From: a virus
Length of the DNA: 64,000 nt
Virus record (IMG/VR): IMGVR_UViG_3300005841_000032
Coordinates: 46,428-110,427 of that record
Direction: 5' to 3' (one strand)
The position numbers were made by a program, and so were the translations under genes. This document shows, piece by piece, positions 2,076 to 44,676 of this stretch. Under the pieces are notes generated by a model. The model ran no database searches. It was not told where the DNA came from and worked only from the letters and a program-made list of their open reading frames with translations. The first letter of the stretch is position 1. The number at the start of each line of letters is the position of its first letter.

Positions 2076-3290
2076 TTATAAAACTGTTGCGCTTAAATTA
2101 ACTGATATCTCCTGATCATAAAAAATTGGATTTACAACCTCTGTTCCTTGACTTATCATTACGTTACCAAATAAATCTCTAGCTATAAAGCCTCTAAATC
2201 TTGGAAATTCATTTGCTTTTAAAGTTATATCTACATTTGGGGTAAAATATCTATCAGCAACACTTTTTACACCATCAACATTTATTACAATGGAAAGCAA
2301 TTTATCCCACTCTATTTTATTCAATGAGCTATCCCAAAATCTAAAATCTACAAGCTTACTAAACTTTTGTTGAATATCAATAACTACATCACTGAAACTT
2401 ACACCTGTAAATAATTCTATGCGCATATCTACATCAATAGGAAAATAAGTTACATTTTTCAATTTAACTCCATAGCTTTTTGTTCCTATTGGATTTAATT
2501 CAGTTAATGCAAAATATTGACTTCCTTGTTCCAGTAATGTATTTAATTCATCATCATTTAAATCAATACCATTGACCGTAAGTATAGATAATGTCGCTTT
2601 TCCATTTTGATCTATCCCATCAAAAACAACTCTTAAAACATTGCTATTAATTTTTATAAATGCTTGCGTTAAATATGATAACGTGTCCTGAGCTAAAATA
2701 TCCGGCCCCTCTTTTATTCTTTGCAAAAACGTTGCGTCATCTTCAACATCTCTCCCACCTTTTGCTCCATATTCATTTATTACAGCAATATGCCCCGATG
2801 GCTCTGGTGAAATATTTATAATGGTATACGGATCAACATTAGAGCTACCACTAGATTGTTGCGATCTTACCTTTACATAATCATATCCCTTAACACCTAT
2901 AGTTAAATCGCTTTCAAGATCAAATATATTACCCTTATTATCTGATACCGTATTTATTCCAGCTTCATAAAACGTTCCTTCATTTGCCACCATTCTTACC
3001 CATGTAGACGATTGAGCAGCATTAAATCTAGGAGCTATTCCTAACATTTCAGCTACACTATCCAAGGTAGAATCAAAAGCAAGATCGGGGTACAAATGGG
3101 ATACTGCTAAAACAATATCTTTTAATGCTTTCTTTGCCGTTCTTACGTTTCCCCTAATTAATCCACGCAAAGCAGAATGGTCTGAAACTTTGGTTATCTT
3201 ATTCTGCGAGTTATTAATAAATGATTCAATGTGAATTGACTCTAATTCCTGACTAGTAGCTTGTCTAATTATATTTTTTGCATTTGGCAT
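2076..3290 (-). CDS. Baseplate J-like protein
   Basis: 404 residues. A helical N-terminus is followed by a central part with GGRDVEDDATFLQRIKEGP near residue 195-215, which matches the Baseplate_J / Mu gp47 signature in which the protein is followed by DDExxRxR-type residues. The C-terminal part ends in short beta segments. Baseplate J proteins form the wedge of contractile tails around the hub. Its placement between hub and fibre genes agrees. Start ATG 2 bp after the previous stop. Confidence 0.72.
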   Translation of the reverse strand: MPNAKNIIRQATSQELESIHIESFINNSQNKITKVSDHSALRGLIRGNVRTAKKALKDIVLAVSHLYPDLAFDSTLDSVAEMLGIAPRFNAAQSSTWVRMVANEGTFYEAGINTVSDNKGNIFDLESDLTIGVKGYDYVKVRSQQSSGSSNVDPYTIINISPEPSGHIAVINEYGAKGGRDVEDDATFLQRIKEGPDILAQDTLSYLTQAFIKINSNVLRVVFDGIDQNGKATLSILTVNGIDLNDDELNTLLEQGSQYFALTELNPIGTKSYGVKLKNVTYFPIDVDMRIELFTGVSFSDVVIDIQQKFSKLVDFRFWDSSLNKIEWDKLLSIVINVDGVKSVADRYFTPNVDITLKANEFPRFRGFIARDLFGNVMISQGTEVVNPIFYDQEISVNLSATVL

Positions 3291-11008: not shown

Positions 11009-11998
11009 TTACAGATTCGGTGAAAGCCTCCACTTAAATCCATATAATGTATCTAAATTACTTTTCCCTCTTATAAATCTACCAATAGCATCTGCTTTGC
11101 CACTATTATAATCGCCAGCTTCTTTTAAAGTTTTGAATTCTGCTAAAATTTCACCAGTAATAGCATCTAATTTCTGAACACTCGTTTTCCCATTTTCACT
11201 ATTTTTAGCCAATAGAATTCTATCATTAAACTGATCCAAAGACATTTTTTCATAATCTGATTTGTAAATAAATACAAAATTATGCGCCTTACGAACTGTA
11301 TTTAAGCAGCATGGAACAACTCCTGATATTTTAGTAATTTTCTTAGCTTGAGTTGCCGATTCATATTCAGCTATCAATCTACCATTAAAATCAAATTGTA
11401 ATACCCGTTTGGCATACATTTGAATCAATTTATTTTTTTCGCTTTCAGTGTAAATGCGTTTCTTTCTAACTCCCTTAAAATTTTTCCTTGCTTCTTTAGC
11501 CGAAACACTCATTTTGGCTCTTGTTTCATCACTAACTTTTTTACCCAAATTAGCCAATCTATTATTTTCTATTTCTTCTTTACTTTTAACACTGCCCTTT
11601 GGACGCCCTATTCTTTTCTTGGCTTCTGTAGAATATCTTATATCAGCTATACTCTTTTTAGCCCTTCTATCTTTATTGTACCCCAACTTATAAAATCGAT
11701 TATCTTTTTCAGAAGCAAAAAGAATATCGTTCAAATATTCTTGTTCAATATCTTTTAAATGATCCTTAAATCTATCCATAGACAAGCCTTTATTTTCTAC
11801 TACCTCTAAAATATATGGAATTAAAAATAGCCCATGCATTTGATATGCTTTGCACAAATCTTTATTTGAATGTTGTTGCAAGCGCATATATCGTTCATGG
11901 TCCTTTAATCTTCTAGCCAGATTGCAAGATGAACCAATATAAATTTTTGATTTATAAAAATCAACAATAGCATAAATGCCAGCCTTAACTGAATTCAT
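11009..11998 (-). CDS. GIY-YIG homing endonuclease with NUMOD repeats
   Basis: 329 residues. The GIY-YIG nuclease core is seen at the N-terminus: GIYAIV at residues 7-12 and KIYIGSS at 18-24, then the Arg/His motif RRLKDHERY. A linker with NUMOD3-type helices follows (SDETRAKMS about residue 157) and a C-terminal DNA-binding NUMOD1-like part (RVLQFDFNGRLIAEY). It is inserted between the tube gene and the chaperone gene, cutting the usual tail gene order. Free-standing mobile gene; likely cleaves alleles lacking it. Confidence 0.88.
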   Translation of the reverse strand: MNSVKAGIYAIVDFYKSKIYIGSSCNLARRLKDHERYMRLQQHSNKDLCKAYQMHGLFLIPYILEVVENKGLSMDRFKDHLKDIEQEYLNDILFASEKDNRFYKLGYNKDRRAKKSIADIRYSTEAKKRIGRPKGSVKSKEEIENNRLANLGKKVSDETRAKMSVSAKEARKNFKGVRKKRIYTESEKNKLIQMYAKRVLQFDFNGRLIAEYESATQAKKITKISGVVPCCLNTVRKAHNFVFIYKSDYEKMSLDQFNDRILLAKNSENGKTSVQKLDAITGEILAEFKTLKEAGDYNSGKADAIGRFIRGKSNLDTLYGFKWRLSPNL

Positions 11999-12519: not shown

Positions 12520-14502
12520 TTAACTATTAGGGTCTAAAATTGTACCAGTAAAGAAAATAAAATTAACAGCAGTATTGGCTACAAATGCATACGTTACTTC
12601 ATATGCATCTACATTCAATACTACATTTACGTCCCTAAAACTGATTATTAAATTGTCTTGATTATCTTTTGCGCACTTTGTTTGCAGATAATTTTCAACA
12701 AAAGTTTTTACATCTTCTGCCTTTAATGTATTACGATTTGTACCATCCGGTTTCTTAAGAAGAACCGTTTTTGCATTAAATACCAACTCCTTATTTAATT
12801 GCCTTTCAATACGTGCCAGTTGCTTACTATAAGTTGAGCCGTCAGGGTTGACTAGTAATTGATCATTTTGAAGAGTATTAATTCCTTCAACAATTTCAAA
12901 AGAATTTCCAATTGCGCGCGTCATTAGCACACCATTCGACAAACCTAATTCAAGGTCATTCTTTTTAAGTGAATGAGCTTCTCCCTCAATTCCAATGTTT
13001 TTAAATGTCAATGGAATCTGTGGCGCTAATCCTGCTTCACGACCAAGTATTGCTGCTGCTTTATAAATAGAATCGTAATGCTTAAACCCTTGTCCGCCTA
13101 TCGCTATCTTATTTGCACCACCATGTACCAATGTTACATATTGACTATCAAAAGCCACTGCTAATGAATTAGAACTATTGGAACCCGTATTCCAATCAGA
13201 AACATCGTAGCCTCCACCAATATAAATATCTGGTTTAATTTGAAGTTCATTTGTTGCAAATTCAATAATAGAAAGATTAGAAGTAGATCGTGCATTAACA
13301 CCCCAATCATCTGCAAGTATAAAATCAAACGTTAAATCTGCAATAGCCTCTAAAGCATCTGTAAGATCGTCTGAGCTATAAGATTCAGTGCCGCCTACTG
13401 CTTTTTCATAAATGCTATATGCAGCAAGATCATCAGTTGTAATTTCATCACTAGCCCCTATTGAATAATCTGCAAGCGTAAAGTAAAATTTGAATGTAAA
13501 GTTACTATTCATCCAGTTTACTAATTCCTGAACAGTGCTAACCTCTGGTGATTTTACAATCAATTCAGGAATAGTACTTAATTCTGGAATTCCATCAAAA
13601 TCTTCTGGAGCGTCAATTGAAATAATGCCATCTAATCCTTTATATGTTCCCCTATAAAAACTCAAGATGAATTTAGTATCGTCTACTTTTCCAGCTGACA
13701 TTCTTGCAGCATAACCACGAGTAAGAATGGTTCCCTCTACCCCACCTGAAAAATTACCACTGTTACCTGCAACTGAACCGGTTGTCTGAATAGTAGCAGG
13801 TAATCCATTCAATGAATCCGCTGAACCATGAGGTGCGTAAATCACTATCTGAGTTGTGTTTTGTGAAAACACTTCACATAAACCATTTGCATCTATTGCC
13901 GATGCAAGTCCTGCAACAATTGCTACAATATTGTCACCGGGTTTAACTACATAGGTTCCAGCAGGTTCACCTCCAATATTTACAGCAATAGAGTCACCGA
14001 CTACACCAACATTAGTAATTGTTATTGTTGCTTTTGCCCTTGTTTCGTCTCCGAGCACTCCATTCCCAATATACCCCTCGGCATTCACTTGAATATCGAG
14101 CGAACCATCATTTTCATCACCATCACTAGCCGATGAGCCAAAAAATAAATTAATTTCAGCCGGAACGGTTTGTGCGGCGCGAATATAAGTTAGACTATCT
14201 ATCCCTTTTGAAGCTCCGCCTCCGGGCAAGAACAATGGACCGGCAAGAAACCAATGTAAGCCACCTTTTTGAAATTTTCTAAATTCTCCTAATTGATTAA
14301 AAGTATAAATAGCATCTTTACCGCTTTTCAATGTGCCATTTATACCGGAGCCTCCACCATAAAACTTTGAATTACCCGTAGAAATTAACAAAGTATTACC
14401 AAAACCTAATTGCAATACCGGAGAAGTAATGCCTCCCTTAATTGTTGAATAAGCTCCGGGAATTGTAATAACTGAAGAGTCGAAAAAATGCTGTCCGGCC
14501 AT
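12520..14502 (-). CDS. Contractile tail sheath protein
   Basis: 660 residues. The N-terminus FDSSVITIPGAYSTI is the conserved opening of phage sheath proteins, and the C-terminus (about residues 560-660) has the domain that interlocks subunits, with VNPDGSTYSKQLARIERQLN. Between them are inserted beta-rich domains (about residues 140-260 and 290-400) that make it longer than P2 or Mu sheath. It defines this phage as having a contractile tail. A GTATTTTTAA box lies 25 nt upstream. Confidence 0.88.
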   Translation of the reverse strand: MAGQHFFDSSVITIPGAYSTIKGGITSPVLQLGFGNTLLISTGNSKFYGGGSGINGTLKSGKDAIYTFNQLGEFRKFQKGGLHWFLAGPLFLPGGGASKGIDSLTYIRAAQTVPAEINLFFGSSASDGDENDGSLDIQVNAEGYIGNGVLGDETRAKATITITNVGVVGDSIAVNIGGEPAGTYVVKPGDNIVAIVAGLASAIDANGLCEVFSQNTTQIVIYAPHGSADSLNGLPATIQTTGSVAGNSGNFSGGVEGTILTRGYAARMSAGKVDDTKFILSFYRGTYKGLDGIISIDAPEDFDGIPELSTIPELIVKSPEVSTVQELVNWMNSNFTFKFYFTLADYSIGASDEITTDDLAAYSIYEKAVGGTESYSSDDLTDALEAIADLTFDFILADDWGVNARSTSNLSIIEFATNELQIKPDIYIGGGYDVSDWNTGSNSSNSLAVAFDSQYVTLVHGGANKIAIGGQGFKHYDSIYKAAAILGREAGLAPQIPLTFKNIGIEGEAHSLKKNDLELGLSNGVLMTRAIGNSFEIVEGINTLQNDQLLVNPDGSTYSKQLARIERQLNKELVFNAKTVLLKKPDGTNRNTLKAEDVKTFVENYLQTKCAKDNQDNLIISFRDVNVVLNVDAYEVTYAFVANTAVNFIFFTGTILDPNS

Positions 14503-19149: not shown

Positions 19150-20358
19150 TTATTCTAATTTCAAAGGATAATTTTCAGTCTTTTTCTTAAAAATATAATC
19201 GCCGCAATAACCAGTTCTTCCACTTAAATTATTACTAATTGCACCCCTATTCAATCCATATTTTTCGGCTGCAAGATAAATGCCATCAAATTCTTCTATA
19301 AATAAAAGGGTATGACGATTATAAGCTAAAATATGTTTTATAGTTAAATGATATTTTATCTTTTTACGAATAAAGTCAATACCTAATTCATCCATATCTC
19401 TTTTCTTCCACCAAAAATAACCATGACAATAATGATCCTTTTTCATTTCTCTGTTAATATTAGATTGAATGTTTTTTCTACCAAGCGACAATGCAGCCGC
19501 AACTTCTCCTTTATGTTCAGCGACTACATTCCCCTCTTTATCAATTTGAACAATAATTGAAACTGGTTTTTCGCTTACTCTTTTTAACCAATTGTCATAA
19601 TCTTTATATTTTGGTATTGGAGTTATTTTTAAAGGGAAGTCTTCGCTCTTTTTCTTTACAAGGTGCTTGTCTTTTATGTATCTACGCACACCTTTCAAAA
19701 CTTTTGAAATATTGCTACGATGAGTGTTAAATTTTCTAGCACATTGTCTTAGCCCAACAATTTCTTCAATGAAATAACCAGTATGCATATCATACACTAG
19801 AATATGAGTTTTTAATTTTTTAGCCTTTTCGCTATTTGCATTAGCAATTCTAAGTTTCTCTCTAAATTCATCTGTTTTACGAAACGCTGTTACTCTTTCT
19901 ACAAATTCTTCTTGCTGCCACAAAATTCTTAGTGTTTTATTTCTTTTATCAATGCTTATTTGACTCTGTTTTTTAGGCTTGTGACTATACGTATAACCAC
20001 GCATATCATTAACGCTGGGCTTTATATTAAAGCCATATTTATGAAACCTGTAATCATTCCATTTAGAATCTATATATTCTTGAGCATACAAAAATATATC
20101 TAAATACAATTGCTCTGTTTTAAATTGAATATTTATATCAGTATACTCAAGAATGTAGGCTCTAAATGAAGATTCTCCATAATTATCAAATGCCTCTAAC
20201 AACAAATTGTTTGGATGATAACTCCCCCTTAATGCAGATATATGCGCTCCAATTCTATTCTTAACATCGTAAGAAGAGCCTATATAAATTCTATTATCTT
20301 TTAGGCATTCTATACAATATACTCCCGATTCACCCCTAATATTGTCTTCAATTTGCAT
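19150..20358 (-). CDS. GIY-YIG homing endonuclease
   Basis: 402 residues. N-terminal GIY-YIG core: GVYCIE at residues 13-18 and RIYIGSS at about 24-30, followed by the conserved Arg in KNRIGAHI. Two C-terminal DNA-binding pieces of NUMOD1 type (HILVYDMHTGYFIEE and a second copy KHILAYNRHTLLFIEE, about 140 residues apart) each followed by a helix-turn-helix (CARKFNTHRSNISKVL, AAEKYGLNRGAISNNL). The duplication would give contacts to a long target. Inserted right after the capsid gene, between its terminator and the next head gene. Confidence 0.88.
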   Translation of the reverse strand: MQIEDNIRGESGVYCIECLKDNRIYIGSSYDVKNRIGAHISALRGSYHPNNLLLEAFDNYGESSFRAYILEYTDINIQFKTEQLYLDIFLYAQEYIDSKWNDYRFHKYGFNIKPSVNDMRGYTYSHKPKKQSQISIDKRNKTLRILWQQEEFVERVTAFRKTDEFREKLRIANANSEKAKKLKTHILVYDMHTGYFIEEIVGLRQCARKFNTHRSNISKVLKGVRRYIKDKHLVKKKSEDFPLKITPIPKYKDYDNWLKRVSEKPVSIIVQIDKEGNVVAEHKGEVAAALSLGRKNIQSNINREMKKDHYCHGYFWWKKRDMDELGIDFIRKKIKYHLTIKHILAYNRHTLLFIEEFDGIYLAAEKYGLNRGAISNNLSGRTGYCGDYIFKKKTENYPLKLE

Positions 20359-22772: not shown

Positions 22773-24074
22773 TTACTTTGAAATAAATTCATTCAATTGA
22801 TCATTTGTCATTGCTGCTCTTTTTTTATCAGCTTCCCATCTATTGCAACAAGCATTTGGATGAATTTTATTGGGAGTATCTCCATCACTATCCTTATCAA
22901 CTTTTAAACATGACATTTTATCAATAATAAAATATTCACATCTCTTACATGAAAAGCCAGTATTATTTTCATTATACCCCGCTTCTTGTTTAGACACTAT
23001 TCCAAGCCAAGGTATTATAGGAGTATTTTCTCCCTTAGGGTCCATATGCATCCAAAATCCACAAGATCCAAATGGCTTTATACTTTCAGAAGCCCCCAAC
23101 ACAGCACATTTATTTGATTTGTTTTTACTAAAGACGCATTTATCGCACGTATACTGCGTTTCTGGCCTAAACATATATAAAGCAGCTTCCTTAGGGATTA
23201 GATTGGTCTTTTTTTTTACTATTTCAGTATCGCCTAAACCTTTTTCAATCTTATTAATTATACTCCATGTATTCTTGCATGACTCTTCGTCCATGCCATA
23301 AGTATCAATTAAATATGTAAGAACTTCTGCTTTGCTAAGCTCTTCTGATTCTATAGGTGTATCTTTCTTCTTTTTTTTCTTTTTGCCTTCTAACGAACCT
23401 TCTTTTAATGATTCTTGAGTTAGCGGTTTATCTATTGTTTCTGTTCCGGTTATGTTTCCGGCTGCCATTGCTTTTTCGATATTTAATTCCTTGTCAACCG
23501 TAGTACGTTCACCATTTTCATTTACGGTATCGATAATAAAATCACTACCGATTTCCGTTTCATATTCAGGAGATTCACCTTTAGTAATTATTACACTAGT
23601 GCCCTTGCATTTTGGATGAGGAGCGATAGCTAATCCATGAATTGTACTTTTTTTAATTCTCCTCTTGTCTTTCGGGTCACGCAATAAACCTTCACCCTCT
23701 ATAGAGTACCCTAACTTTCTGCTAGAAGAACTTTTAGATAATGTTTTTGTTAAATCAAATACCTTCTTTGCCATTTCTGATCCAGAATATAATTTTGATT
23801 TAACCATTAGTTTACCATCTTTTTTTTCAAATGAAAGCGGTTCACCTATAATCATTGATGGGTCTTTGTGCCCCAAATGGTTCCAGTTAACGAAGCCGCG
23901 GTGCATTAACTTAGTTAAGTCCATCCCATCAACTTCCAAAATATCTCCATCTAAATCGGCTCCCGTAGTTTCATCACTTACTACTCCGCCTACGATCATT
24001 ACTTCGTCACCATTTTCATCCGTAGACTTTTCAAGAATATCAAAGGGTACGAAATAGGAAAATTTATCATTCAT
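22773..24074 (-). CDS. Prohead protease fused to cysteine-rich C-terminus
   Basis: 433 residues from ATG 24072-24074, which overlaps the stop of the GIY-YIG gene. N-terminal protease domain (about residues 10-170): VNWNHLG supplies the likely catalytic His and RKLGYSIEG the likely Ser, as in the S78 / U35-type phage prohead proteases. After it, residues 201-230 share 20 of 30 positions with the capsid N-terminus, followed by a run of seven Lys. The C-terminal 110 residues hold two CxxC-type clusters (YTCDKCVF, FSCKRCEYF, NACCNRW) that look metal-binding. The C-terminal extension is unusual for a prohead protease. Confidence 0.78.
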   Translation of the reverse strand: MNDKFSYFVPFDILEKSTDENGDEVMIVGGVVSDETTGADLDGDILEVDGMDLTKLMHRGFVNWNHLGHKDPSMIIGEPLSFEKKDGKLMVKSKLYSGSEMAKKVFDLTKTLSKSSSSRKLGYSIEGEGLLRDPKDKRRIKKSTIHGLAIAPHPKCKGTSVIITKGESPEYETEIGSDFIIDTVNENGERTTVDKELNIEKAMAAGNITGTETIDKPLTQESLKEGSLEGKKKKKKKDTPIESEELSKAEVLTYLIDTYGMDEESCKNTWSIINKIEKGLGDTEIVKKKTNLIPKEAALYMFRPETQYTCDKCVFSKNKSNKCAVLGASESIKPFGSCGFWMHMDPKGENTPIIPWLGIVSKQEAGYNENNTGFSCKRCEYFIIDKMSCLKVDKDSDGDTPNKIHPNACCNRWEADKKRAAMTNDQLNEFISK

Positions 24075-25128
24075 AATAACTCCATTTAAATTTTTTACAT
24101 AAGCCATCTCTTCTAATTGAATTTCCAATCGCAGATGGCGAAACATCAAATTTCTTAGCTGCTGAACTCAATGATTTAAATACCTCAATTATTTCAAATG
24201 TTTTAGGATTTAATTGAGCTACTGATTTCTCAAAGTGAGGTGCGGGTATGGACTTGCCTTTATTCCAAACAGACTTATCGGCATTCAATGTTACCAATTT
24301 GAACAATAACTCTTCGCTAAAATCTTTTTCTCTAATCCAAATGCTCTTATTACAACTGTTAGTTTTGCCCCTTGCATTGTTATTAATAGCTACCGGATCA
24401 ATGCTATAAAATTTTCCTGCTAATAGAGATGAATCAAATTCGTTTATTTTATTCCCCTTCAAATCAAATTCGAATAGCTTGTAGCCCTTTTTCTTTGCAA
24501 GAATAATTTGTCTTAGTTTTTCTTTTGTTTCATCAGACTGCTTTTTACCTAAATGACTTTGTCTATTTCTTTCAATTTGGTCAGGCGTACACTTTTTACC
24601 AAGCATGCCGCTAGGTTTCCCTAAATGCTTGATTCTATTTTTTTCTTTTGCTTCGTCAGTATGCTTGCCTTTAAATCCAGTTGACCAAGTGCCATTTTTT
24701 AATTTAGTCGCTAAACTCTTTTCTATTGACTCTTTAGGCATTTTATAGCCAGCGCTAGTTTCGCCTCCATTAGTGAGATTAGTTAGCGGCCCCCTTTTTA
24801 AATCTGCTCGGCCAATAACTTTTACTAAATATTTTTCACTCTGGTTAGCAACGTTATTTGATAATCCATTATTCAACTGAATAATTATAGGCTCCAAACC
24901 TTCATTAATAATTGCCCTTATGGTATTTTGTTTGTGACTATTTTTTTTATAAGTTTCGCTAAATGATTCCCATAGATGAGCCGTTTTTCTATCACCCTCT
25001 CCACGACCAACATAAAAAGGTTGCGCTGGAAGAATAATATCTATTCCGGGAATTTTATATAGAATCCTTTTTCTAGGATCGCAGTAGACGTAATTGTAAA
25101 ATCGATTAGACGTGTTAACTAAGTTCAC
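24067..25128 (-). CDS. LEM-3-like GIY-YIG homing endonuclease, GTG start
   Basis: 353 residues with GTG at 25126-25128, chosen because the GTATTTTTAA box is 4 nt upstream and the longer frame passes through a terminator. The N-terminus has YNYVYCDPRKR and PFYVGRGEGDR, the variant GIY-YIG motif of the LEM-3-like group (Y-x-YVG instead of YIG). The middle carries repeated NUMOD3-type pieces (SDETKEKLRQ, DEAKEKNRIKHLG) and the end a NUMOD1/HTH piece (AAKKFDVSPSAIGNSI). Inserted between the protease gene and its original upstream gene. Confidence 0.85.
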   Translation of the reverse strand: MNLVNTSNRFYNYVYCDPRKRILYKIPGIDIILPAQPFYVGRGEGDRKTAHLWESFSETYKKNSHKQNTIRAIINEGLEPIIIQLNNGLSNNVANQSEKYLVKVIGRADLKRGPLTNLTNGGETSAGYKMPKESIEKSLATKLKNGTWSTGFKGKHTDEAKEKNRIKHLGKPSGMLGKKCTPDQIERNRQSHLGKKQSDETKEKLRQIILAKKKGYKLFEFDLKGNKINEFDSSLLAGKFYSIDPVAINNNARGKTNSCNKSIWIREKDFSEELLFKLVTLNADKSVWNKGKSIPAPHFEKSVAQLNPKTFEIIEVFKSLSSAAKKFDVSPSAIGNSIRRDGLCKKFKWSYYE

Positions 25129-25132
25129 GTCC

Positions 25133-25142
25133 TTAAAAATAC
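25133..25142 (-). promoter_or_regulatory. GTATTTTTAA box 4 nt before GTG
   Basis: Box is followed by GGAC and the GTG of the homing endonuclease gene. Terminator lies 22 bp upstream. The same promoter would also serve the overlapping protease gene. Confidence 0.6.
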
Positions 25143-25163
25143 GAAAGTCTATAAAAACAAAAA

Positions 25164-25189
25164 CCCCTTGCCTATTTCTAAGCAAGGGG
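25164..25189 (-). terminator. Rho-independent terminator
   Basis: Stem CCCCTTGC / GCAAGGGG with a 10-nt loop, followed by TTTTTGTTTTT on the minus strand. Ends the 61-residue gene unit. Confidence 0.8.
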
Positions 25190-41861: not shown

Positions 41862-41865
41862 ATTG

Positions 41866-41952
41866 TGCCCCGGGAAAGAATTGAACTTTCACGATCATTA
41901 CTGATCACAGAATTTTAAGTTCTGCTTGTACTACCATTTTCAACACCGGGGC
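41866..41952 (-). tRNA. tRNA-Leu(UAA)
   Basis: 87 nt. Acceptor GCCCCGG pairs with CCGGGGC; anticodon stem CAGAA/TTCTG with loop CTTAAAA, anticodon TAA; a long variable arm (TGATCAGTAATGATCG) as in Leu tRNAs. T-arm loop TTCAATT. CCA is not encoded. Confidence 0.85.
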
Positions 41953-42066
41953 AAAAATAAACAAAGAAGCTCTACTCTGTTGGTCTTTTTACAAGGGCTG
42001 GAATGTGACACCTTTTCTCTGTTTAAATACAGACGCGCTCTCTGTTATACATGCGTAATTAAGAAG

Positions 42067-42140
42067 TAGCGGGAGCCAGACTCGAACTGGCGCATAAAAG
42101 CTTATGAGGCTTTCCTTCTACCAACTGAAAGTATCCCGCG
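42067..42140 (-). tRNA. tRNA with CAU anticodon (Met or Ile2)
   Basis: 74 nt. Anticodon stem AAAGC/GCTTT with loop CTCATAA, T-stem GCCAG/CTGGC with TTCGAGT. Position 1-72 is C-U, unpaired. It lacks the three G-C pairs of initiator tRNA in the anticodon stem, so elongator Met or lysidine-modified Ile. Confidence 0.8.
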
Positions 42141-42269
42141 ATGTAAAAAAACAAGTGACTGTATGTTTCTAACTAATTTGGTTAGATGCCATTAACCCTA
42201 CAGGTAGGTAATTGCCTATTGACAATATTTTCGCACCACTTGTTTTATTTTTCATATTTCAAAATTAAT

Positions 42270-42377
42270 CTAAAATATCATTCCAACAAAATAAACTATA
42301 CAATAAGCTAAAATTCCTCCAGTTGAAATAGTAAAAATGGGCAATAGTGTTTCCCATGTATTTTCTATAGCTACCAT
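42270..42377 (-). CDS. Small one-span membrane protein
   Basis: 35 residues. MVAIENTWETLLPIFTIST then a hydrophobic segment GGILAYCIVYFVGMIF. Its ATG overlaps the stop of the upstream gene by 7 bp (ATGGTAG), supporting translation. Too short for usual ORF calls. Confidence 0.5.
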   Translation of the reverse strand: MVAIENTWETLLPIFTISTGGILAYCIVYFVGMIF

Positions 42378-42703
42378 TCTTCTATGCTTGGCTCTGGCTT
42401 TAAGTGAGTATGTTTTTCGTTTTTGCATATTGTAGAGATTATCGTTGTTTCTCTCTTATCTAAGTCATTAATAAAAATTATCAACCCCGTATCAGTATTT
42501 TCAAACCAAACTGAATAAAGATCATCTTTACTGCCATTACTTAATACTAAATATTGCTTATTTCTTTTCTCTAATTTCAAATGCAAATCAATCGATTGAG
42601 ATATAATATGTAATGAATCTTTATCTGCAAATAATCCTACTCTTTCATATTTGCATTGCTGTCCATTTCCTAAAACTACATATAGCCAAAGAATAAATCG
42701 CAT
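42371..42703 (-). CDS. Small exported-type protein
   Basis: 110 residues. The N-terminus FILWLYVVLGNG is hydrophobic but short for a signal peptide; the rest is beta-rich and charged (LKLEKRNKQYLVLSNG). It lies between tRNA genes. No domain recognised. Confidence 0.5.
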   Translation of the reverse strand: MRFILWLYVVLGNGQQCKYERVGLFADKDSLHIISQSIDLHLKLEKRNKQYLVLSNGSKDDLYSVWFENTDTGLIIFINDLDKRETTIISTICKNEKHTHLKPEPSIEEW

Positions 42704-42713
42704 TCAATTTTTG

Positions 42714-42788
42714 AGCCCGTGGATGGAATCGAACCACCGACCTGTTGCTTACAAGGCAAACGCTCTAACCTACTGAGCTACATCGGGC
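42714..42788 (-). tRNA. tRNA-Thr(UGU)
   Basis: 75 nt. Acceptor GCCCG/CGGGC with two inner mismatches at positions 6-67 and 7-66, D-arm AGCTCAGTAGGTTAGAGC, anticodon loop CTTGTAA (TGT), T-arm GGTGG TTCGATT CCATC. Its 5' end overlaps the stop of the upstream small gene by 19 bp. Confidence 0.82.
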
Positions 42789-42941: not shown

Positions 42942-43898
42942 TTATTTAAAAATACCATATTTGCGACTTAAATTTATACCATTACAATGACTTATCCAGC
43001 CATTATACGCGGCTACCGAATACTCATTCCTATTACTCTTAATCATTCGTTTAAAGTTCTCTTTTATACTTTTACGCAACAAAGAATAGTCAGGGAATAT
43101 TTTATAACCTAAGAAATCGATTCCTCTATCTTTTACCGGAAACACTTGATAATTATTCTTTATTTCCAATTTCAAATTATCCCATAAATACACTTGAATA
43201 TCTTCTCGCAGGTTATGAAGCCAATGTTTATCGTGATGCAGTATTAAAATGTCGTCACAATATCTAAACAAATATTTTACCCGTCTATCTTCTTTCAACC
43301 AATGATCAAAATATGTAAGGTAAAAATTAGCAAATAGGCCACTCAGGTAATTGCCTATCGGTAAGCCCGTTCCGCTATCTATAATTTCATCTAATAGCCA
43401 TAATAGCTTTCCATCTTTAAATTTTCGTCTCAGCAATTGTTTAAGTATTTCATTTGAGACATTTGGAAAGTATTTCTTAATATCCAATTTTAATGCATAC
43501 TTGGTTTCTTCTTTATTCCATAAAGCCGCTTTAACATCATAATATCCTCGATGAATTCCTCTACCAACAACGCAACTATACGTATTAGCTATAAATGATT
43601 TAGTTAGAATATCACCTATAACATTAACTATTGCATGATGACAGATACGATCCGGATAATATGGAAGACGCGCTATATCTCTTGCCTTTGGCTCATAAAT
43701 AGTGAAGTAAGAATATTCAGAAGTTTTATAAGTCATTTCTTTTAAACTTCGCTGCAAATCCTTAATATTCTCATCTTCTTGCTTTCGATGTTCAATTACA
43801 TCTCTATTCCATTTCTTCCCACGACTCGCATTTTTATCCGCCAACTTAAGATTATCTAAATCATAAATTTGCTCATATAAATTGCCAACTCTCTTCAT
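42942..43898 (-). CDS. DGR reverse transcriptase
   Basis: 318 residues. RT motifs: LKLDIKKYFPNV (137-147, catalytic Asp 139), GLPIGNYLSG (178-187, the DGR type of motif 4, where group II intron RTs have QGG), YCDDILIL (213-220, catalytic pair). The last residue of the usual IGxxxSQ motif is Gly instead of Gln. Template repeat 114 bp upstream and variable repeat beyond it confirm a DGR. It makes mutagenised cDNA by error-prone copying at template adenines. A maturase or endonuclease domain is absent. Confidence 0.93.
   Translation of the reverse strand: MKRVGNLYEQIYDLDNLKLADKNASRGKKWNRDVIEHRKQEDENIKDLQRSLKEMTYKTSEYSYFTIYEPKARDIARLPYYPDRICHHAIVNVIGDILTKSFIANTYSCVVGRGIHRGYYDVKAALWNKEETKYALKLDIKKYFPNVSNEILKQLLRRKFKDGKLLWLLDEIIDSGTGLPIGNYLSGLFANFYLTYFDHWLKEDRRVKYLFRYCDDILILHHDKHWLHNLREDIQVYLWDNLKLEIKNNYQVFPVKDRGIDFLGYKIFPDYSLLRKSIKENFKRMIKSNRNEYSVAAYNGWISHCNGINLSRKYGIFK
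42946..42955 (-). promoter_or_regulatory. GTATTTTTAA sequence in RT C-terminal codons
   Basis: The 10-mer is in the last codons of the RT gene (GIFK-stop), 11 nt before the ATG of the small basic gene. It could be a promoter for that gene and tRNA-Thr, or chance. Confidence 0.3.
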
Positions 43899-44011
43899 TT
43901 CTCTAAATAAAAGTCTCTTTCAATTACTTACTAAAGACTTTCCTTCTTACTTGATCTTTTGCCTAAGGGCAAGGTTGACACATATTTAAATAGGTAGGGA
44001 AAATTTTTAGA

Positions 44012-44082
44012 GTTAGCCTCGCCTCCATATTCGAGTTGTAGTTCCAATTATTCGCATTAGAATTCAGCACTCAACTAGAAGA
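44012..44082 (-). repeat. DGR template repeat (TR)
   Basis: 71 bp. Aligns without gaps with 44177-44247. On the minus strand it has 22 adenines. All 19 differences to the variable repeat are at these adenines. Many AAY codons in register with the target frame (four AAT, two AAC), the usual design for wide amino-acid choice. Not translated; the target frame through it has a TGA at 44071-44073. Confidence 0.95.
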
Positions 44083-44100
44083 AACATTCTATGTGTAACG

Positions 44101-44676
44101 CTAAGCGGAAAGATAATCTTCATAAATATCTTTAAATTGTTTACCAGCATACAAAGCTGTTCTTTCATCCCTATATGAAAGCCCCGCCCCCAAAACCGAG
44201 TCGTAGTACCAAACACCCGCAACAGAAACCAGCACCCAACCAGAAGATTTTTTTTCGAACCAAGGGTACCACTTTGATTGAGATGAATTTTTATAGTCTT
44301 CCGTCCAGCCTTCATTAAGAACTTCTGCAATCAACTGAATTTTCGCAGCAGCATTCAATGCTTTTTGCTTCTTATTTTTTGGATTATTGAATGGAACAAC
44401 ATTCTCTTCCTCTTCACCTGCTAATTCAAGAATATCTTTCCATTTCAAATCACGATCAGTCAATGTGACTGATTTAAAAACATCAAAATACTTTTTCAGC
44501 ATTTCTTTCTGTGTTTCATTAGCATCGTTAAATGCTTTCTTGATCAAAGTTTCTTCTACCTCAATCGTATCGCCTGACTGCCATAAAGCAAGTTCAGTGA
44601 TTTTCTTTTGCCAATCTTGACATACTTGTCCGTAAATTGTTTGCAAATCTTTTCGTGAAATTTTCTGTGCTTTCAT
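44101..44676 (-). CDS. DGR target protein with C-type-lectin-like C-terminus
   Basis: 191 residues. Residues 1-110 are helical and of unknown fold. From about 124 to the end (GWTEDYKN through YAGKQFKDIYEDYL) the sequence has the pattern of Bacteroidota phage DGR targets, where variable residues lie on a C-type-lectin-like surface. Codons 144-167 are the variable repeat; 13 residues differ from those encoded by the template. Likely a binding protein for a changing ligand on the host surface, though it is 30 kb away from the tail fibre genes. Confidence 0.9.
   Translation of the reverse strand: MKAQKISRKDLQTIYGQVCQDWQKKITELALWQSGDTIEVEETLIKKAFNDANETQKEMLKKYFDVFKSVTLTDRDLKWKDILELAGEEEENVVPFNNPKNKKQKALNAAAKIQLIAEVLNEGWTEDYKNSSQSKWYPWFEKKSSGWVLVSVAGVWYYDSVLGAGLSYRDERTALYAGKQFKDIYEDYLSA
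44162..44181 (-). repeat. Stem-loop at end of DGR variable repeat
   Basis: CTTTCAT / ATGAAAG, perfect 7-bp stem with 6-nt loop (ATAGGG in the coding strand). It overlaps the last 5 bp of the variable repeat. Known DGRs need such a hairpin just downstream of VR for retrohoming. Confidence 0.7.
44177..44247 (-). repeat. DGR variable repeat (VR)
   Basis: 71 bp in codons 144-167 of the target. Compared with the template (coding strand): A to G at 11 sites, A to T at 8, A to C at none; 3 adenines kept. No other base differs. Changed codons 146, 147, 150, 152, 154, 155, 157, 159, 161, 162, 163, 165, 166 and 167. Confidence 0.95.

Follow-up and report, generated by a model that had tools for sequence, protein, structure and literature searches.

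A recently used diversity-generating retroelement in a contractile Bacteroidota phage and its target family, phrog_11581

The DNA analyzed here—hereafter the window—is a stretch of 64,000 nt, corresponding to nt 46428-110427 of a 110,427-nt IMG/VR record that carries one reverse transcriptase (RT) gene. This gene belongs to a diversity-generating retroelement (DGR) cassette at 42942-44676, in which the target open reading frame (ORF), with the variable repeat (VR) inside it, is followed by the template repeat (TR) and the RT, in that order along the minus strand. The main features are as follows, with the supporting evidence in brackets where it applies.

2076-3290: Baseplate_J protein
12520-14502: tail sheath, phrog_279 (the match covers a 398-aa C-terminal part)
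42942-43898, minus strand: DGR RT, 318 aa, with YCDD and with IGxxxSG instead of IGxxxSQ (RVT_1, phrog_1423, 8ub7, tree, motif)
44012-44082, minus strand: TR, 71 nt, non-coding, between target and RT (repeat comparison)
44101-44676, minus strand: DGR target gene, 191 aa, phrog_11581 family (intact ORF, profile matches)
44101-44176, minus strand: constant C-terminus of the target past the VR, YRDERTALYAGKQFKDIYEDYLSA, a predicted helical stretch typical of the family (model and relatives)
44162-44181, minus strand: 7-bp stem closed by a 6-nt loop, CTTTCAT-ATAGGG-ATGAAAG, at the 3' end of the VR, considered incidental (shuffles and relatives)
44177-44247, minus strand: VR, 71 nt, target codons 144-167 (19 differences from the TR, all at template A)

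A preliminary description of this locus had proposed a complete DGR, and the cassette is confirmed at these coordinates with target, VR, TR, and RT all on the minus strand. Around 25 further codons follow the VR in the target, so that the VR does not lie at the extreme C terminus. The interval running from target through TR to RT leaves no room for an Avd-like ORF, and the ORFs scanned on either side of the cassette gave no convincing Pfam or PHROG match. When the whole record was searched with each template A replaced by N, exactly two copies of the repeat were found and no third. Rfam matches near the cassette are tRNAs only; three tRNA genes (Leu, Met, and Thr) lie directly downstream of it, at 41865-42788 of the window.

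The TR and VR align without gaps and differ at 19 positions, all of them among the 22 template adenines (19/22), and every one of the 49 non-adenine template positions is identical; the chance of all 19 differences landing on adenines is p = 1.8e-14. Recomputation thus returned the same counts as had been reported. The spectrum from TR to VR is A>G 11, A>T 8, and A>C 0. In relatives the A>C share is 15%, and comparing the window's zero with them gives a Fisher p of 0.10—the missing A>C is only weakly unusual. Template adenines fall at codon position 1 or 2 in 20 of 22 cases, and the 14 variable residues of the target allow ~8e11 combinations. Read in the VR frame, the TR has TGA at target codon 147, where the VR has TGG; if that adenine were kept in retrohoming, the target would end at residue 146. 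By our own count, of 205 VRs in the phrog_11581 family about 6 have an internal stop in their TR. Stops in the TR were flagged in 29 cases, most of them a TAA at the 3' edge of the repeat, which we read as an alignment extended by chance. A DNA-level search of the phage collection gave no match to the window. The 49 non-adenine positions have not diverged, even though no relative found has an RT more than 59-60% identical to this one; the VR was therefore written recently.

A stem-loop at the VR end had also been pointed out. The 7-bp stem does exist, with its 5' arm partly within the VR and two of its pairs involving mutated adenine positions, but it is not a conserved element. Stems of that length arise in 2% of shuffles, and among 233 VR ends from relatives such a stem occurs in 6, against a background of 2.4%; since this is no enrichment, the idea of a conserved structure was rejected.

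Profile searches match the RT to RVT_1 (7.6e-14) and to phrog_1423 (1.4e-115). Its best PDB match is 8ub7, 'Reverse transcriptase' (2.4e-43, 152 bits), which we take to be the DGR RT of Bordetella phage BPP-1; this score is ~100 bits above those for group II or other RTs, with RTs of other classes scoring <50 bits. Among NCBIfam models, the window RT reaches 107 bits with TIGR04416 (cut-off 300) and 56 with retron St85 (cut-off 235), the latter a weak score that speaks against a retron RT. In a tree of 93 rows, built with retron RTs left out, it falls among the DGR RTs on a long branch; the BPP-1 RT is on its side of the tree, and those of group II introns lie outside (support 99). Tree and PDB scores thus place it, as had been claimed, with the DGR RTs and not with group II. 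The closest RTs in named phages are those of crAss-like DGRs, with 45-53% identity (52.9% to cr52_1), and the best relatives in IMG/VR are ~60% identical.

The two motifs noted earlier, YCDD and IGNYLSG, are both present, but the latter is not an ordinary one: its final G, at residue 187, turns the DGR hallmark SQ into SG. All 89 DGR RTs compared have Q at that position and group II RTs have P; the window motif reads IGNYLSG, not the QGxxxSP expected of a group II intron or retron RT. Four of 51 conserved columns depart in the window RT. In published DGRs the motif (I/V/L)GxxxSQ of RT domain 4 is conserved in 90% of RTs but not required, and changes at SQ are tolerated, with SP, SH, NQ, PA, AQ, and VQ as known variants (PMC3521204). 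In our IMG/VR scan, SG also appeared in two other RT lineages (L186; L185/L187) that have A-only TR/VR pairs, A>C included, and SG is therefore rare yet compatible with adenine mutagenesis. A role for SG in the missing A>C was considered and is unsupported, as A>C is present at L186 and L187, both of them SG loci, and the deficit itself is weak.

Genes for TerL, portal, head protease, and major capsid are recognizable in the phage. Its TerL and major capsid are closest to those of Chryseobacterium phage MA9V-3 (50% identity in the major capsid, 43.5% in TerL), followed by those of flavobacterial and Bacteroides phages. The assignment to a Bacteroidota phage stands, given that the closest relatives by capsid and TerL infect Bacteroidota, and so does the contractile morphology, because both a phrog_279 sheath and a Baseplate_J protein are encoded. 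A pattern search with the sheath gene found no viral relatives. Three homing-endonuclease-like ORFs (phrog_314; 11009-11998, 19150-20358, and 24067-25185) break the head/tail block. Much of this block is common to MA9V-3, in the same order, and neither RT nor target has a match in the MA9V-3 record minus its last 3 kb; the cassette therefore appears, from gene order, to occupy a variable region between a MuF-like gene and the head protease. In the window it lies between head genes and tRNAs, with a head gene within 3 kb on the same strand and the sheath and baseplate genes about 28-42 kb away.

The target matches phrog_11581 at 5.7e-15 and a profile of its relatives at 1.4e-39. All 63 aligned members (the window protein and 62 relatives) match phrog_11581, a family of unknown function, and Pfam gave no family shared by them. 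No match was returned by tblastn of the window target against phages, or by a genome scan using one relative as query. The RT led to 80 fetched IMG/VR loci, most of them with an A-only TR/VR pair; most targets there are small proteins of about 120-190 aa in which ~25 constant residues come after the VR. A scan of 84,980 species genomes added 78 further loci, almost all from Bacteroidota and a few from Ignavibacteria/Chlorobi. The total comes to 247 family proteins in 135 loci, nearly all in Bacteroidota or their phages, and 107 loci combine a phrog_11581 protein with an A-only TR/VR pair. The target had been put forward as a new family; with these numbers it is not one, though phrog_11581 is unstudied. 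Loci usually hold two or three family proteins, and the window holds one. Family members at L101, L102, L136, L138, L149, and other loci have no RT or TR/VR within 6 kb; these either are targets lying far from their RT or have ceased to be diversified.

The fold of the target bears on what the VR displays. AlphaFold predicts the window target (63 sequences) as mostly helical, with a mean pLDDT of 86.8 and the VR on a lower-confidence hairpin followed by helices; a shorter, canonical relative (123 sequences) is likewise modeled as helical (mean pLDDT 84.0), its VR forming a loop of low confidence. A C-type-lectin fold, predicted around the VR in the preliminary description, was not found by Pfam, PDB sequence search, or Foldseek—with both models, Foldseek gave nothing better than E = 1 against the PDB and no lectin, and the BFVD matches are uncharacterized phage proteins, several from crAss-like viruses. 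An hhalign comparison of the family profile with lectin-type DGR targets aligns 27 columns, in the VR only, with a probability of 88%. By PHROG profiles, the small proteins of phages Versailles and LoVEphage, discussed below, match phrog_11581 over their full length and a tail-protein family at the VR only. In our reading of these models, the target may combine a variable hairpin resembling that of lectins with a scaffold of another kind.

Several named phages use one template for two targets. In Versailles, a Bacteroides phage (L087/L178), the TR next to the RT has A-only matches to two targets: an adjacent tail protein, with 11 differences from the TR over 108 nt, and a phrog_11581 protein >40 kb off in a recombination/replication module, with 14 differences over 107 nt, all at A. 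LoVEphage (L184/L183) has a distant family protein (19/19 TR differences at A, 113 nt) in a methyltransferase region, and its TR diversifies a tail protein as well. In crAss-like cr52_1 (L084/L180), a distant phrog_11581-like protein shows 14/14 differences at A over 65 nt. An annotated tail protein of another crAss-like phage, cr53_1 (L085, 3257-3733), contains a stop under code 11, possibly a stop codon reassigned by the phage. The published second DGR target of Quimbyviridae is non-structural, hypervariable, and away from tail genes, placed in a defense-related island and described with a C-type-lectin domain (Benler et al. 2021, PMC8008677). The LoVEphage neighborhood, with methyltransferases and RtcB, resembles the published surroundings of that target, which suggests that the LoVEphage phrog_11581 protein is the same one. 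The published case and the distant targets sharing a TR mean that non-tail DGR targets were already known, so the distance between target and tail genes, which had been presented as new, is not a novelty. The cited DGR literature does not state that non-tail targets belong to phrog_11581 or that this family dominates the present RT clade.

It is useful to compare the window with these and other known systems. Phage BPP-1 (Mtd/avd/brt) has the same target-TR-RT order on one strand, A-only differences, and a related RT; in contrast, the window has no avd-like ORF between target and RT, its target is neither Mtd-like nor beside tail fibers, and its RT has SG rather than SQ. The crAss-like DGRs (cr52_1, cr53_1, and LMMB) are linked to the window by the RT identities given above, and cr52_1 likewise diversifies a phrog_11581-like protein, although there it is distant and uses the same TR as a tail target; the RT-proximal target of crAss-like DGRs is a tail protein, whereas the only target found in the window is a small protein. 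Quimbyviridae and LoVEphage also diversify a non-structural hypervariable protein off the tail genes, a phrog_11581 protein in LoVEphage, but there the RT neighbors the tail target and the small protein lies far off, unlike in the window, where RT and small protein are adjacent; their authors described a C-type-lectin domain, and our predicted models show none in the branch to which the window target belongs. Cassettes in Bacteroidota prophages that carry one to three phrog_11581 targets (for example L094, L096, and L120) share target family, RT clade, and layout with the window; they usually encode two or three family proteins, and the window encodes one with a longer N-terminal part.

We put the probability that the cassette is a DGR working by mutagenic retrohoming at about 0.88—a figure that covers the mechanism and not the role of the target. 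In copying TR RNA, the RT would insert bases at random wherever the template has an adenine, and the resulting cDNA would replace the VR, changing up to 14 residues; these would sit in a variable hairpin or loop towards the C-terminal end of the target, a small phrog_11581 protein that is predicted to be helical. The RT is probably active today. A decaying DGR, with its hallmark glutamine lost, the cassette frozen, and the VR a fossil of past activity, would account for the SG where all compared DGR RTs have Q, the four departures from conserved columns, and the long branch, all of which allow for altered or lost activity, as well as for the in-frame stop in the TR. It fits poorly with the absence of any non-adenine TR/VR difference, the intact ORFs and YCDD, the two other SG lineages with A-only pairs, and the tolerance of published DGRs to changes at SQ (PMC3521204), and we consider it improbable. 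Two other readings, a duplicated segment that has simply diverged and an RT from a group II intron or retron that lies nearby by chance, could appeal to RVT_1 domains being common to all these enzymes; the adenine bias, the tree, the PDB scores, and the same layout in >100 relatives refute both, along with a chance repeat, and leave them a negligible share of the probability.

The role of the target is less clear. Our tentative choice, at a little under even odds, is a binding protein with its site of action within the infected cell or the lysogen, as opposed to a receptor-binding protein of the tail; its partner could be a host factor, a defense component, or a competing phage. Strongly hydrophobic segments are found in only 7 of 247 family members. 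The flanks fetched for 36 of the 107 cassettes contain genes of replication initiation, recombination, or Mu-type transposition, or genes for a UvsX-like ATPase or DNA methyltransferase, which argues against a tail role; the locations of the Versailles and LoVEphage members point the same way. The gene contexts of relatives fit a non-virion role at least as well as surface binding, and the window's own context does not decide, because its cassette is flanked by head genes and tRNAs. The target might instead be a receptor-binding or decoration protein of the virion, with the VR loop on the particle and the DGR switching host tropism as with Mtd in BPP-1. Tail proteins make up most of the known phage DGR targets (PMC8144416), one TR serves a tail and a small protein in three phages, a head gene lies <3 kb from the cassette on the same strand, and the lectin-like VR peptide, aligning with tail C-type-lectin VRs, fits receptor binding and counts against an intracellular role. 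However, the target is small and without recognizable tail domains, has no structural match to C-type lectins, and is far from the sheath and baseplate genes, and its relatives often lie in replication/transposition modules; we regard a virion role as possible but rather doubtful.

The cassette is a genuine, recently used DGR of a known kind; taken alone it is one more DGR, and its value lies in the target family, together with the shared-template pattern. Found in Bacteroidota prophages and in gut and environmental phages, phrog_11581 has no assigned function or recognizable fold and is diversified as heavily as tail proteins. A broader proposal, which we advance as speculation and would not bet on, is that the family is a widespread non-lectin scaffold that shares with C-type lectins no more than their variable hairpin, serving as an intracellular diversified binder—for example, against host defense or competing phages—and sometimes using the same TR as a tail protein. 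Versailles, LoVEphage, and cr52_1 each share one TR between a tail protein and a family protein, and the first two come from Bacteroides hosts; with such named phages, what non-tail DGR targets bind becomes testable in the laboratory.
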